From: an uncultured Pelagibacteraceae bacterium
Lineage (GTDB): Bacteria; Pseudomonadota; Alphaproteobacteria; Pelagibacterales; Pelagibacteraceae
Assembly (NCBI GenBank): GCA_902529105.1
Contig: CABZUW010000004.1
Span: 1-64,000 of the forward strand
Length of the DNA stretch: 64,000 bases
Direction: 5' to 3'
Under the pieces are notes generated by a model, which had not been told where the DNA came from, made no database searches, and saw only the letters and a program-made list of their open reading frames with translations. The position numbers and the translations under genes were made by a program. Below are positions 27,736-45,142 of the stretch, piece after piece (positions within the stretch are counted from its first letter, which is position 1; each line of letters starts with the position of its first letter).

Positions 27736-28316
27736 TATAAATTATTTAAATAGTTTTTTAATTCACGAATCGGCAAACCCATAATCGTATCTTTATCTCC
27801 TTCTATATTGCTAAATAAATTTTTACCCTCTCCTTCAACTTGATACACATTATAAGAATATAGATTTTCATCCGTTATTTTTGAAAGATATTCAGATAAC
27901 TCTTTATCACTAAATTTTTTCATAGTTAACAATGCTTTATCTGTGTGGTTCCAGATCATTGATCCGTTCTTTGAAATGCACAGCGAGCTTATTAAATAAT
28001 GCTGATTATTATTGAGTTTTTTTAAAATTCCCATTGCCTCTAGTCTATCCTTTGGTTTAGAAATTATATTATTTTGTAGATCTATTACACTGTCCGCTCC
28101 TAGAACTATTTTTTCTGGGTTGTTGTTACTAACTTTATTAGCTTTTAATTCTGCTAAGTTTTTTGAAACTATTTCCGGAGAAGCTCCTTCTTTAATAAGA
28201 CTTTCTTTTACAGGCTCTTCGTCTACATTTGATGGTTGGACCTCACAAAATATACCATTGTTTTCCAAGATATTTTTTCTTACTTTGCTTTTCGAGGCTA
28301 AGATAATTTTATTCAT
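27735..28316 (-). CDS. maf: Maf-family nucleotide pyrophosphatase
   Basis: House-cleaning nucleoside triphosphate pyrophosphatase of the Maf/YceF type. It starts KIILASKSKVRKNILENN, with VDEEPVKESL near residue 37, KIVLGADSVID near 72-82 (catalytic Asp), SKPKDRLEAMGIL near 89 and the late YQVEGEGKNLFSNIEGD. The ATG at 28316 begins the family's canonical start and overlaps the ppsR end by 8 bases; a longer start at 28334 would add six residues. Which nucleotides it prefers is not clear. Confidence 0.93.
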   Translation of the reverse strand: MNKIILASKSKVRKNILENNGIFCEVQPSNVDEEPVKESLIKEGASPEIVSKNLAELKANKVSNNNPEKIVLGADSVIDLQNNIISKPKDRLEAMGILKKLNNNQHYLISSLCISKNGSMIWNHTDKALLTMKKFSDKELSEYLSKITDENLYSYNVYQVEGEGKNLFSNIEGDKDTIMGLPIRELKNYLNNL

Positions 28317-29133
28317 TTCTACTATTAATCTCATGTATCTTAATTATAGATGCTGCCGTTTCTTCTACAGACTTTCTTGTAACATCAATGACTGGCCATT
28401 TATATTTTTTAAATGTTTTTCTAGCAGCTTTTACTTCTTCAGATATTTTTTTTAAGTTCGTGTAATCTGTTTTCTCATTTTCTTTTAAAGATCTCAATCT
28501 GTTTTTTCTAAGATCAATCAAACGTTCTGGATCGGTTGTTAACCCAACAACACAAATTTTTCTTTTATTTTTTTTTATTTTTTCTGGTATAGAGTTTTCG
28601 TTTACTAAGGGAATATTTGAAGTCTTATAACCTCTATTAGCTAAATATATTGATGTAGGTGTTTTACTTGTTCTACTTACGCCAAGTAAGATTATGTCGG
28701 ATTCCTCTATATCTTTAACATCGTTTCCATCGTCATGTCTCATGGTAAATTGTATTGCTTCTACTCGTTCATAATATTCTTCATTTAATTTATGCTGTCT
28801 GCTTGGAATATTTAAAGATTGTTTATTTAGTATTTTTGAGAAATTTTTTATTAATTCTCCTAAAACACCAAAGCACGGAATGTTATTTTTTTTTGATAAT
28901 TCATTTAAAAATAGTGCAAGCTTTTGATCTACCAAAGTATAAAGAATAATTGTATTTTCTTTTGTCTTGGCCTCTTTTAATATTTCTGAAATTTGATTCT
29001 CTGTTCTAGTAAATGAAAACTGCTGAGTTTTGTAAGAAAAATCTTTGAATTGAGCCCTTAAAGCTGTAAAGATTCTATCTATAGTTTCGCCAGTTGAGTC
29101 GGATATTAGGAATATTTCATGTGTATTCTTCAT
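28309..29133 (-). CDS. ppsR: PEP synthase / PPDK regulatory kinase-phosphorylase (DUF299)
   Basis: Bifunctional ADP-dependent kinase and phosphate-dependent phosphorylase that switches phosphoenolpyruvate synthase or pyruvate phosphate dikinase off and on. Family signatures are IFLISDSTGETI near the start, QFTMRHDDG near residue 127, LLGVSRTSKTPTSIYLANRGYKTSNIPLV near 148-176 (P-loop-like) and VGLTTDPERLIDLRKNRL near 193-210. Length 274 is usual. It is the first gene of the leftward operon and lies next to the proposed origin. Confidence 0.95.
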   Translation of the reverse strand: MKNTHEIFLISDSTGETIDRIFTALRAQFKDFSYKTQQFSFTRTENQISEILKEAKTKENTIILYTLVDQKLALFLNELSKKNNIPCFGVLGELIKNFSKILNKQSLNIPSRQHKLNEEYYERVEAIQFTMRHDDGNDVKDIEESDIILLGVSRTSKTPTSIYLANRGYKTSNIPLVNENSIPEKIKKNKRKICVVGLTTDPERLIDLRKNRLRSLKENEKTDYTNLKKISEEVKAARKTFKKYKWPVIDVTRKSVEETAASIIKIHEINSRNE

Positions 29134-29296
29134 GTATAAAATTTAATAAAATTACCTAAATTTTGCTTTTAGCGCCATTTAATAGATTTTATTATAATTA
29201 GCACCTTCTTATTAACAATGTTTTAGATATTGTATAAAACAATACATAATATTTGATAAGATTTAATATTGTCTTATAAACCTTAAAAAACAACAT

Positions 29297-29305
29297 TTTT
29301 TCACA
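29297..29305 (+). promoter_or_regulatory. DnaA box-like site 1
   Basis: TTTTTCACA fits TTWTNCACA exactly. It is paired with an inverted copy 29 bases downstream, together forming a symmetrical arrangement (ttttttcaca ... tgtgaaaaaa) that could also be read as a long hairpin. Confidence 0.6.
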
Positions 29306-29334
29306 TTTGTTTATTTTATAAAGAGTTTATAACT

Positions 29335-29343
29335 TGTGAAAAA
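29335..29343 (-). promoter_or_regulatory. DnaA box-like site 2 (inverted)
   Basis: TGTGAAAAA on the plus strand is TTTTTCACA on the minus strand, again an exact fit to TTWTNCACA. It lies 65 bases before the hemE start. Confidence 0.6.
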
Positions 29344-29408
29344 ATAATAATTAAACTAATTCACAATACATAATACTAATAAAGTTAAATACTTATATAT
29401 ATTTATTA

Positions 29409-30407
29409 ATGGAGAAAATTAAACAAGTTATTGAAAATAAAGTCGTCAATATCAAACCTATATGGTTGATGAGACAGGCAGGAAGGTATCTACCTGAATT
29501 CAGAGAAATTAGATCAAAAAATCAAGACTTTATAAAGTTGTGCTTAAACGAAACTTTAGTTCCTGAAATAACCCTTCAACCTTTAAAAAGGTTTGATCTA
29601 GATGCTGCCATTATATTTTCAGATATTTTAATGCTACATTATGGTTTAGGTCAGTCGGTTAAATTTAAAAAAGATTTTGGTCCTATGTTGGGAGATATTG
29701 ATGATGTAAATCTAAATAATGTTACTGAGAAAGATTTTATAAAAAATCTTGAACCTGTTTATATATCTATGAATAAGCTGTCTAATTCCTTAAAGGGTCT
29801 AGATAAAAGTCTTATCGGCTTTGTAGGGGCACCGTGGACAACCTTAATTTATATGCTAAACCGCCAGTCACCAAAAAAACAGTTATCAAGTGATCTTCAT
29901 AATATTGATAAAAAAAAATCATTATCTAAAATAATAACGAATTATTTAAAAATTCACATTAGAGAACAAGTTAAATCTGGAGCAACAATTATACAAATAT
30001 TTGATAGTTGGGCAGGTCTTGCAGTTAAAGATGATATTAAAACTCTAATATATAATTGTTCAGCTGATTTAGTCGAATTTACAAAGTCTCTTGGCGTTCC
30101 AGCGATATGTTTCCCAAGAGAAATAGTAGACTATAAAGAATATATATCTGAAGTTAACCCTAGTGCTGTAAACATTGATTATAATGTAGATATAGATTAT
30201 ATCTCAAAAAATATAGACATTCCTGTTCAAGGAGGATTAGATCCAAAATTCCTATTATCAGATAAAGAAACTCTGAAATCTGAAAGTTTGAAAATACTAG
30301 ATATTTTTAAAGACCATCCTTATATTTTTAATTTAGGTCATGGTGTCCTTCCTAAGACAGATCCAAATATGGTAGATTACTTAGTAAACATTGTAAAAGA
30401 TTATTAA
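29409..30407 (+). CDS. hemE: Uroporphyrinogen decarboxylase
   Basis: Decarboxylates uroporphyrinogen III to coproporphyrinogen III in haem synthesis. PIWLMRQAGRYLPEFR near residues 17-32 is the family signature, with the conserved arginines, AAIIFSDILM near 66-75 carrying the catalytic Asp, GFVGAPWTTLIYML near 137-150, and FNLGHGVLPKTDP near 309. Length 332 is normal. It is followed directly by hemH (stop and ATG abut) and hemJ. There is no evident ribosome site. Confidence 0.97.
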   Translation: MEKIKQVIENKVVNIKPIWLMRQAGRYLPEFREIRSKNQDFIKLCLNETLVPEITLQPLKRFDLDAAIIFSDILMLHYGLGQSVKFKKDFGPMLGDIDDVNLNNVTEKDFIKNLEPVYISMNKLSNSLKGLDKSLIGFVGAPWTTLIYMLNRQSPKKQLSSDLHNIDKKKSLSKIITNYLKIHIREQVKSGATIIQIFDSWAGLAVKDDIKTLIYNCSADLVEFTKSLGVPAICFPREIVDYKEYISEVNPSAVNIDYNVDIDYISKNIDIPVQGGLDPKFLLSDKETLKSESLKILDIFKDHPYIFNLGHGVLPKTDPNMVDYLVNIVKDY

Positions 30408-38069: not shown

Positions 38070-38713
38070 TTGATTCGCAAATTATAAAAAAAAATTTAAA
38101 AAATATTGGATATGATGTTTCACGTGAAACATTAAGGGAATTAGATATGTTTAGTTCCTCAATATTGCTAAAAAATTCGCATATAAATTTAATCAGTAAA
38201 AATAGCGAAAAAGACATAATTAACAGACATATATTAGATAGCGCGCAAATAATTGATTATGTTGATAAAAATGATATATTATCATGTACAGATTTAGGCT
38301 CTGGTGCCGGCTTACCTGGTATAGTTATTGGTATTTTAATGAAATCTAAAAAACCACTATTTAAGTTAATTTTTTACGAAAAGAGCTTTCATAAAAGTAA
38401 TTTTCTAAAACAAATGAATGAAAAATTTAAATTAAATGCAGAAGTCTATCAAAAAAATGTCTTCAATGAAAAAAATATACAAACAGATATAATAGTTTCA
38501 AGAGCATTTAAGCCTCTACCAGTAATATTTGAACTAGCAATTAAAAATTTTAAAAAGTTTAAATATATAATTTTATTTCTAGGCAAAAGTGGAAATCAAA
38601 TATTAGATGAGGCTAGCAGAGAATGGATTTTTAATTATGAAAAAAGGAAAAGTTTAACCAATAAAGAGTCATTAATAATTAAAATTTTTAATCTTAGAAA
38701 AAAAAATGCATAA
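38066..38713 (+). CDS. rsmG: 16S rRNA m7G527 methyltransferase RsmG
   Basis: SAM-dependent methyltransferase (GidB) acting on 16S rRNA G527. [28 protein letters not shown] is near residues 35-62, the SAM motif [17 protein letters not shown] near 74-90, and [15 protein letters not shown] near 148-162. The probable start is a TTG at 38066 overlapping the mnmG stop (TTGA); no nearby ATG is available. The first 30 residues include VSRET, encoded by a perfect parS palindrome. Its end overlaps parA by 8 bases. Confidence 0.95.
38116..38131. promoter_or_regulatory. parS: Perfect parS centromere site inside rsmG
   Basis: TGTTTCACGTGAAACA is a 16-bp perfect palindrome identical to the classic bacterial parS consensus. 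It lies about 575 bases upstream of parA and 1.4 kb upstream of parB, within 9 kb of the origin candidate, as expected for the ParB loading site. It encodes the residues V-S-R-E-T in rsmG. Confidence 0.93.
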
Positions 38714-39506
38714 CAAAATTATTTCGATCATAAATCAAAAAGGTGGTGTAGGAAAAACAACAACGGTTATAAATTTGGCTGCAGGACTTTCAATGAAAGG
38801 AAAAAAAATCCTTGTCATTGACTTAGACCCACAAGGAAATGCAACAACAGGATTAGGTTTGTCTAATATTGAAAATTCCGATCAAACAATTTATTCCGTA
38901 CTGAATGGCACAAAAAAAATCTTTGAGGTAATCCAAAAAACTAAATTTGAGAATCTTGATTTAGTAACTTCAAATGTAGATTTGTCAGGACTGGAGGTTG
39001 AGACTGCAGGGGACAGTCGTAGAGCCTTTAAATTAAAGGATGAATTAGCCTCTATTTTAAATGATTCTAGAGCATTTTATGATTATATCCTTATTGATTG
39101 TCCTCCATCACTTAGTCTTTTAACAATTATGGCACTAGTATCATCAAATTCATTGATTGTGCCTTTGCAAACAGAATTCTTTGCTCTTGAAGGTTTAACT
39201 CAGCTAATGAAAACAATTGAGAGAATTAAATCTAATCTAAACCCAACTCTAGAGATAAAAGGAATACTCTTAACGATGTATGATAAGAGAAACAAGCTTT
39301 CAAGCGAAGTCGAGCAAGAAGCGAGAAATTTTTTTAGAGAAAAAGTTTACTCAACTATAGTCCCAAGAAATGTTAGACTATCAGAAGCACCCTCACATGG
39401 TGTTCCAGTATTGATATATGATAAGGCTTGCCCCGGGAGCAAAGCATACTTTAGCTTAACAGATGAGTTTTTAAATAAAGACAAATTAGTTGAAAGTGCT
39501 GCATGA
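38706..39506 (+). CDS. parA: Chromosome partitioning ATPase ParA
   Basis: Deviant Walker-A ATPase that moves ParB-parS complexes. IISIINQKGGVGKTTTVINLAAGL is at residues 5-28, IDLDPQGNATTGLG near 40-53, DYILIDCPPSLSLLTIMAL near 120-138 and VPRNVRLSEAPSHGVPVLIYD near 219-239. Length 266 is usual. It overlaps rsmG by 8 bases and parB by 4, so all of mnmG-rsmG-parA-parB is probably one transcript. Confidence 0.97.
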   Translation: MHNKIISIINQKGGVGKTTTVINLAAGLSMKGKKILVIDLDPQGNATTGLGLSNIENSDQTIYSVLNGTKKIFEVIQKTKFENLDLVTSNVDLSGLEVETAGDSRRAFKLKDELASILNDSRAFYDYILIDCPPSLSLLTIMALVSSNSLIVPLQTEFFALEGLTQLMKTIERIKSNLNPTLEIKGILLTMYDKRNKLSSEVEQEARNFFREKVYSTIVPRNVRLSEAPSHGVPVLIYDKACPGSKAYFSLTDEFLNKDKLVESAA

Positions 39507-40351
39507 TGAATCCCTTTAAAAATAGAAAAGGTTTAGGTAGAGGTCTATCATCTCTAATTGGTGATAATGAAATTAAGATTGAAAAAAATAAGATTTCTAT
39601 AGGTTCCATATTGCCAAATAAATTTCAACCGCGAAAAAATTTTGATAAAGAAAGATTATCAGAGTTAACAAATTCCATAAAAGAAAGTGGTATAATCCAA
39701 CCTTTAATTGTCAGAAAGTCTAAAGAGCAGAATAAATATGAATTGATAGCTGGAGAGCGTAGGTGGCAAGCAGCACAAAATGCTGGATTGCATGAGGTTC
39801 CAATTGTTGAGATTGTGGCTGATGATTTAAAATCATTAGAATTTGCTATTGTAGAGAATGTACAAAGATCAGACTTAAATGCAATTGAAGAAGCTGAAGG
39901 TTATAAAAAATTAATAGACGATTTTAATTATGATCAGGAAAAGGTAGCGAAATTCATAGGCAAAAGTAGATCACATGTATCTAATTCTTTGAGACTTTTG
40001 ACTTTACCAAAACAGATAAAAGATATGATCACAGAATATAAGCTTTCACAAGGTCATTGTAAAATATTAGTAGGTTTGGAAAATAATTTATTTATAGCTA
40101 AGACAATAATTAAGAAAAAGTTGTCTGTAAGACAAACAGAGAGCTTAATAAGATCAATTCGAAATAGTGGCAAGATTTCAAAAAAATCAAAAGATCCTAA
40201 CTTATCAAGCTTAGAGGACTCTTTAAAAGATAAGATTGGTATAAATGTACGTATTAATAATAAAAAAAATAATAATGGAAATTTAATATTTGATTATAAA
40301 GATTTAGATCAACTAAATAGATTAATCATGGTCGTTAAAGCAAACTACTAA
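39503..40351 (+). CDS. parB: Chromosome partitioning CTPase ParB
   Basis: DNA clamp that loads at parS and slides on CTP binding. GLGRGLSSLIGDN near residue 10 is the ParA-contact region, PNKFQPRKNFDKERLSELTNSIKESGIIQPLIVR near 38-71 starts the N-domain, and GERRWQAAQNAG near 82-93 is the CTP-binding box. FAIVENVQRSDLNAIEEA near 113-130 and the helix-turn-helix KFIGKSRSHVSNSLRLL near 151-167 follow. A second ATG overlaps the parA stop and would shorten it by one residue. It converges on holA with a 4-base overlap. Confidence 0.97.
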   Translation: MMNPFKNRKGLGRGLSSLIGDNEIKIEKNKISIGSILPNKFQPRKNFDKERLSELTNSIKESGIIQPLIVRKSKEQNKYELIAGERRWQAAQNAGLHEVPIVEIVADDLKSLEFAIVENVQRSDLNAIEEAEGYKKLIDDFNYDQEKVAKFIGKSRSHVSNSLRLLTLPKQIKDMITEYKLSQGHCKILVGLENNLFIAKTIIKKKLSVRQTESLIRSIRNSGKISKKSKDPNLSSLEDSLKDKIGINVRINNKKNNNGNLIFDYKDLDQLNRLIMVVKANY

Positions 40352-44921: not shown

Positions 44922-45109
44922 ATAGCTAAATAATGAAAATTGTTCTAATATTTTTTCAATAATATGCAATTATTAATAAACTATCAAAAAAAACCTCGTA
45001 TTTATTAGTTATTTTATATGATGTATTTTTGCAACAATATTTAAATTTTTAGACAAAAAGACAAAAAAAAACTCATATTTTATATATGTTTTGCTAAAAA
45101 AGGCCTGTT

Positions 45110-45115
45110 TATAAT
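45110..45115 (+). promoter_or_regulatory. Probable -10 element of the porin promoter
   Basis: A perfect TATAAT lies 27 bases before the porin ATG in a very AT-rich 173-base gap. I could not find a convincing -35 hexamer at the usual 16-18 base spacing; TTGCTA at 45091 is only 13 bases away. The 173-base gap holds nothing else I can name. Confidence 0.5.
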
Positions 45116-45142
45116 TAATTATTAACAATTAGGAGTAAATTT

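Follow-up and report, generated by a model that had tools for sequence, protein, structure and literature searches.

Chromosomal origins linked to hemE are a known group among the alphaproteobacteria. The mapped origin of Caulobacter lies between hemE and a COG1806 (DUF299) gene, and the region is arranged alike in Rickettsia (PMC1914354). CtrA sites are a regulatory add-on in Caulobacter and are missing from some other alphaproteobacterial origins described in the same study (PMC1914354). The events of origin opening have been cast into a BUS rule, which asks for a DnaA box with at most two mismatches, a spacer of no more than 16 bases and at least three DnaA-trios (PMC8287927). In E. coli oriC, low-affinity arrays are built of 9-mers spaced by 2 bases (PMC6727663), while in Cyanothece the DnaA footprint covers the word TTATCAACA (PMC4674748). 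For Pelagibacter, the origin has been placed by a GC-skew script (PMC9516812); among the titles and abstract openings of the open-licence literature no description of a SAR11 origin sequence was found, and DoriC may hold automatic predictions.

The stretch analysed here, called the window, comprises 64,000 nucleotides of a genome of this group. On sequence evidence, its ppsR-hemE gap is very probably the chromosomal origin (oriC) of a SAR11 bacterium, a reading to which a probability of about 0.93 can be given. The gap, 275 bases at 29134-29408, is the widest between the chosen non-overlapping ORFs of the window (the runners-up measure 173 and 170 bases) and has an AT content of 83.6%, compared with 70.5% window-wide. 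The sequence-only reading of this DNA was correct in calling it the largest gap and AT-rich, and its length, its composition and the counterpart gaps in relatives make the entire interval the putative oriC. On its left lies ppsR (28309-29133, minus strand), a regulator of pyruvate, phosphate dikinase/PEP synthase that matches NF003742 with 314.7 bits for a cut-off of 225; on its right lies hemE (29409-30407, plus strand), whose match to TIGR01464 reaches 284.6 bits, under the cut-off of 302.95. NF003742 is presumably equivalent to COG1806/DUF299. The two genes are divergent across the gap, as in the alphaproteobacterial hemE/COG1806 placement of oriC, and the AT content exceeds that of its surroundings, another property looked for in such origins and judged here on the window. 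The position matches the hemE-adjacent origins of Caulobacter and Rickettsia that had been invoked from the sequence (PMC1914354).

To the left of ppsR follow maf-like, aroE, coaE and dnaQ genes, and to the right of hemE come hemH, hemJ, rho, a TPR-like ORF, mnmE, mnmG, an rsmG-like gene, parA and parB. Ten ORFs point rightward up to 40351, while five point leftward down to 25549 and are followed by two rightward ones; of the proposed switch of transcription at the gap, the divergence stands and the long runs on both sides are only half right. An exact parS, TGTTTCACGTGAAACA, is found at 38116-38131 (0.13 expected at up to two mismatches), 8.7 kb to the right of the gap, and is followed by parA (38706-39506, plus strand), identified by ParA-type NCBIfam matches of which 0 of the 25 listed lie above their own cut-off, and by parB (39503-40351, plus strand; TIGR00180, 176.5 bits, cut-off 58.45). 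The partition locus announced at about 9 kb is thus indeed in place. The parS is retained with at most one mismatch in 60 of the 65 loci of sufficient length, and its conservation near the gap fits an origin-proximal partition locus. As a separate observation, this parS sits within the coding frame of rsmG (gidB) and is not intergenic. The closest named loci, titled Pelagibacteraceae, encode a hemE 92-94% identical to that of the window, and the SAR11 assignment stands.

The gap contains two exact DnaA words (TTWTNCACA) in inverted orientation, at 29297-29305 (plus) and 29335-29343 (minus), and three words with one mismatch, TTATTAACA at 29209-29217, TAATTCACA at 29357-29365 and TTTTATACA at 29231-29239 (minus). 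All four words listed from the sequence alone are therefore present, with the one at 29231-29239 as a third one-mismatch word. TTWTNCACA is not enriched over the 64-kb window (8 observed, 11.06 expected) and shows a mild excess in the genome (163 words, where the reversed pattern gives 128). Of 2000 dinucleotide shuffles of the gap, none reached two exact words (mean 0.06), and 1.4% reached five words at up to one mismatch. Given this absence of enrichment in the window and mild excess in the genome, it is the clustering and the conservation of the words that carry the case; the two exact words on their own are modest evidence, and the comparison with relatives is much stronger. What the sequence-only reading overlooked is the better evidence, namely an array with 11-base spacing and a DnaA-trio module beside hemE.

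Relatives were collected by a hemE scan. It yielded 80 named loci, almost all of which bear the title Pelagibacteraceae or Pelagibacter; within the genus, hemE was matched in 84 of the 101 genomes. The divergent ppsR-hemE pair is present in 78 of the 80 named loci, with gaps of 260-287 bases; the other two (L060 and L071) stop short of ppsR. Once duplicate gaps and further copies of the window had been merged, 110 gaps came down to 96 distinct ones (77 from named loci, 18 from genomes of the genus and that of the window), which were aligned. In most aligned loci hemE is about 60% identical to that of the window, and across the 96 gaps conservation is poor over much of the length, whereas a core some 75 bases long next to hemE is retained, with the box, the reverse 9-mers, a 4-base spacer and about four trios described below. 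The alignment was anchored on the hemE-proximal box, picked solely for its similarity to TTATTCACA, A, C and T being allowed at position 6. This register could be set for 93 of the 96 gaps; three were left unanchored by it, and six by another anchoring rule.

In this register the box at position 0 reads TTATTCACA in 42 of 93 gaps; in the window it is TAATTCACA (29357-29365, plus strand). Reverse words TGTKNAWAA with at most one mismatch are found in 72 (-22), 66 (-33) and 68 (-44) of the 93 gaps, whereas other offsets average 1.18 reverse words and the highest of them, 33 of 93 at -96, lies outside the row. Since the offsets are exactly -22, -33 and -44, the sites are 9-mers separated by 2-base gaps. 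The window carries the exact box TTTTTCACA at -22 (29335-29343, minus strand), a weak one-mismatch site at -33 that reads AGTTTATAA on the plus strand (29324-29332, minus strand) and a poor site with two mismatches at -44. Of its two exact boxes, only that at 29335-29343 belongs to the conserved register; the other TTTTTCACA, found by the word scan at 29297-29305 on the plus strand, falls outside it, and a forward TTTTNCACA occupies that position bin four times in 96 gaps (in the window and in L010-L012). Further left, the DnaA-box-like word TTATTAACA (29209-29217, plus strand), with A at position 6, stands at register -148; forward boxes group at -148 (35) and -147 (14) relative to the hemE-proximal box, and forward TTATTAACA accounts for 67 words across the 96 gaps.

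On the other side of the hemE-proximal box, a spacer of 4 bases (29366-29369, plus strand) leads to four DnaA-trios, ATA-ATA-CTA-ATA on the box strand (29370-29381, plus strand) and 3'-NAN-5' on the other strand, and an AT-rich tract then extends to the hemE start (29382-29408) and is presumed to be the DNA unwinding element. In the window, TAATTCACA with its two mismatches to TTATCCACA, its 4-base spacer and its four trios conforms to the BUS rule. The phase is sharply conserved: four NTA triplets counted from +13 are filled to 0.80, compared with 0.02 when counted from +14 and from +15, and in the same phase the figures are 56% from +10 and 69% from +16. This trio phase in 93 gaps fits the published rule (PMC8287927). 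Columns of the box, the array and the trios are sharp, while columns -62 to -45 are mostly of low information, as computed at an effective number of about 35 with clusters down-weighted and relatedness partly remaining.

A leave-clade-out matrix was derived from 85 sequences outside the clade of the window (effective number 11.7). On the 64-kb window, its best site is the 74-base conserved core (29311-29384, plus strand) with 42.7 bits, followed by a site of 12.3 bits. With near sequences excluded, the core was scored by the script as top site in 70 of 72 loci; in the other two (L025 and L033), the top matches, of 52.2 and 56.5 bits, are the true core in the gap, the script anchor having taken a neighbouring box-like word. 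The core is also the top site in the sampled sequence of two complete relatives, with 43.1 versus 15.5 bits in G012 and 52.4 versus 14.8 bits in G082, where the second score is the other strand of the same core. Among other genera, the register is absent from g6 and present in part in g5 and g7. An exact double site, TGTKNAWAA-NN-TGTKNAWAA, was tried as a genome-wide finder and rejected as too strict, with matches in three of nine complete or near-complete genomes; the match in G113 adjoins ppsR. Boxes and layout are kept in most of the close relatives examined, and the DnaA-box cluster conserved in relatives that is expected of a hemE/COG1806 oriC is found; the comparison that the sequence-only reading had proposed came out in its favour.

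The IHF consensus, used for a scan of the gaps, is not found in the window gap and is present in 22 of the 96 gaps. Across the same 96 gaps the CtrA-type motif TTAAN7TTAA shows no clear enrichment (38 versus 28.8 expected); both kinds of site are seen in Caulobacter. Pelagibacter has been reported to be without ctrA, and the absent enrichment is in line with that report (PMC2877005). GANTC, reported to be methylated in Pelagibacter (PMC9516812), occurs by raw count 0 times in the window gap and in 2 of 96 gaps; avoidance of GANTC at the origin is possible.

The unusual feature of these gaps is the A at position 6 that dominates the weak boxes. Over the 96 gaps, TTATNCACA is observed 73 times against 3.5 expected, and TTATNAACA, with A in place of the usual C at position 6, 207 times against 16.2; in the flanks (1.27 Mb from 63 loci) the corresponding figures are 43 versus 76 and 136 versus 196. 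The change from C to A at position 6 is by far the commonest single change from TTATNCACA. Other single-change words, among them ATATNCACA, CTATNCACA, TAATNCACA, TTTTNCACA and TTATNCAGA, are enriched at lower counts, as expected of a loose box. The exchange follows the register: at position 0 the sixth base is C in 74 and A in 6 of the 93 gaps, at -22 it is C in 10, A in 42 and T in 8, and at -44 it is C in 13, A in 54, T in 2 and G in 1. Because A and C exchange at the same register, and given the Cyanothece footprint, the A6 words can most probably be read as weak DnaA boxes.

A change in DnaA itself was considered as the cause of the A6 boxes and rejected. The contact residues of helix 5 look unchanged, relative to the E. 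coli DnaA row, apart from one isoleucine in place of E. coli L438, a residue that family f2 has as well. The residues preceding the helix-5 motif vary, with GGRDHTT in f2, SNRDHTT or ANRDHTT in g1 and g5-g7, and TG/SG in g2-g4. Regions upstream of hemE in f2 (four stretches of 600 bases, partly coding) also hold A6 words, 8 against 0.8 expected. Since f2 has A6 words too and the contact residues look unchanged, no coevolution is claimed.

The alternative that survives best, itself unlikely and compatible with the gap being an origin, is that the TTATNAACA words bind another protein, such as a nucleoid protein. The A at position 6 does depart from the consensus, the nearly unchanged helix-5 contacts offer no explanation for it on the protein side, and T at position 6 also exceeds expectation in the small sets of g5 (10 versus 1.6) and g6 (6 versus 1.3), for which reason the alphabet of these two genera is perhaps looser. 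Against this, A and C swap at an identical register in 93 gaps, TTATN-T-ACA and TTATN-G-ACA remain at chance level in the 96 gaps (15 versus 17 and 1 versus 2 expected), and TTATCAACA lies inside the DnaA footprint of Cyanothece (PMC4674748). Recognition of the A6 words by DnaA remains the preferred reading. Words of the same kind are also seen outside the origin candidate: the second-largest gap of the window, 44970-45142, has three TTATNAACA words (45106, 45119 and 45141) within 44 bases and is followed by an ORF of 303 aa without an NCBIfam match at 1e-5; these three words may mark a DnaA-regulated promoter, or be chance.

GC skew was examined in two complete single-contig relatives, G082 and G012, because the window's own genome is a draft in 35 contigs. 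The sample covered about 30% of each relative (420 of 1,343 kb and 400 of 1,438 kb) and was denser near hemE. The cumulative minimum of this sample lies at 907-937 kb in G082, where the gap is at 910.4-910.7 kb, and at 1,282-1,307 kb in G012, where it misses the gap (1,262 kb) by 20-46 kb, so that over both sampled genomes the minima fall 3 to 46 kb from the gap. Relative to the antipode of hemE, the maxima of the same samples are displaced by 14-34 kb in G082 and by 102-127 kb in G012. Since about 30% was read, more densely near hemE and with a largest unread stretch of 228 kb in G082, the skew supports the origin reading and does not decide it; the minimum that had been predicted to fall at the gap is near it, in these two sampled relatives, and not exactly on it. 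That replication begins elsewhere, for example at dnaA, 60-63 kb from hemE in both genomes, or 20-46 kb toward the ppsR side, is very improbable. The displaced minimum of G012 speaks for it, as does a best-fit origin at 1,310 kb in that genome (SS 0.0876 versus 0.0923 at 1,260 kb), and in G082 the dnaA position (971 kb) fits almost as well as the gap (SS 0.0847 versus 0.0828 at 910 kb). Yet dnaA fits worse in G012 (0.1052 at 1,200 kb), no core-like site was found with the matrix in 32 dnaA loci (best 10.4 bits), and the gap holds the sole strong core within the sampled sequence of both genomes. The origin reading is supported jointly by the conserved boxes and layout, the hemE/COG1806 position and the sampled skew minima near the gap.

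The core is also independent of the genes that border it. Neither the five genomes of family f2 that were listed nor four loci of that family (L203-L206) gave a ppsR match, and at these loci maf faces hemE across the gap; a core-like element, recognised by eye, is kept despite this loss, for example TTCACAGGTACAACTACTACTACTATT in L206. Conversely, at a locus of genus g2 (L235) hemE is absent and ppsR faces rho, and TTATAAACATGACCTAATAACAAAAC, again recognised by eye, is kept; ppsR faces rho at a second locus of the class search as well (L255). In two single-contig g2 genomes (G101 and G107), the best hemE match is 31-32% identical and, in G101, located elsewhere; the heme genes beside the g2 origin look lost or moved. 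Because the element outlasts the loss of either gene, the core is not merely a promoter of ppsR or hemE, and its retention in f2 and g2 indicates that it tracks a chromosome position and neither gene. A mere divergent promoter region serving ppsR and hemE, at which DnaA would regulate transcription, is accordingly a most improbable account of the gap: both genes do start outward from the gap and DnaA regulates promoters, but the core-like element persists without ppsR (maf-hemE in f2) and without hemE (ppsR-rho in g2), a phased array with trios is not a lone regulator site, and the skew turns nearby in two relatives (about 30% sampled).

Across the class, ppsR was matched in 99 of 143 genomes, and a divergent hemE lies beside it in 28 of the 30 loci fetched, the window's own included, with gaps of 275 to 1067 bases. 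Elsewhere among the alphaproteobacteria, the part of the gap nearest hemE holds words such as TTATTCACAGGGATAAACAACTACTACC and ATATTCACAGGGATCCACTAACAACTACTATT. A strict BUS-like word is present there in 9 of 27 other gaps (shuffled mean 0.05; reverse strand 0) and was not matched in the other 18, which makes the class-wide layout a lead and not proof. One contig titled as a Flavobacteriaceae MAG (L050, CAJPUR010000031.1) carries a SAR11-like ppsR-hemE locus with a hemE 61% identical and is probably misbinned.

Taken as an origin, the gap would work as follows. DnaA would bind cooperatively, in a row, to the box next to hemE and to the weak sites, the A6 words (TTATNAACA) being weak sites that would fill later. 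From this row DnaA would be loaded onto the trio strand, and the adjacent AT-rich DNA would melt, allowing helicase loading and the departure of forks both ways, while parS and ParAB, 9 kb away, would segregate the new origins. Beyond this scheme, we tentatively propose, at somewhat less than even odds, that SAR11 origins share an unusual box alphabet, with A6 weak sites in a strict 11-base row that forms a near-minimal orisome, some 75 bases long and free of IHF and CtrA sites, and in which the choice of A or C sets site strength and perhaps timing.

SAR11 bacteria are among the most abundant cells of the ocean. A defined core, recognisable in draft genomes, supplies an origin anchor for growth estimates, and peak-to-trough estimates from metagenomes depend on the position of the origin (PMC7852909). 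The array, being compact, is also a natural setting in which to test the cooperation of trios and weak DnaA sites where IHF and CtrA sites are lacking; the A/C exchange at position 6 makes a direct, testable prediction on DnaA specificity.

Compared with the origins described so far, the gap resembles Cori of Caulobacter crescentus and the Rickettsia origin in its hemE/COG1806 position, its AT-richness and its DnaA boxes (PMC1914354), and differs from them in its 275 bases, in its A6 weak sites, in the IHF consensus that is missing from the window gap and in showing no clear CtrA enrichment. With the BUS systems it shares the box, the spacer and trios with a central A on the other strand; unlike theirs, the trios of the window mix ATA with CTA (3'-GAT-5' on the other strand), and the main text of the BUS paper names neither Pelagibacter nor Caulobacter nor "alphaproteobacteria" (PMC8287927). 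The 2-base-spaced 9-mers, with a stronger box close by at the edge of the unwinding element, recall E. coli oriC (PMC6727663), but where E. coli has two arrays of four, SAR11 has a single row of three lying close to its unwinding box, in a much shorter layout without IHF spacing. In the origin of the linear Cyanothece chromosome, domain IV of DnaA protects a region with the A6 box TTATCAACA; that origin has one such box, whereas A6 is the commonest form in the SAR11 gaps (PMC4674748). The SAR11 gap is a very compact member of the known hemE-linked alphaproteobacterial origins, in which a BUS module is joined to an E. coli-like array.
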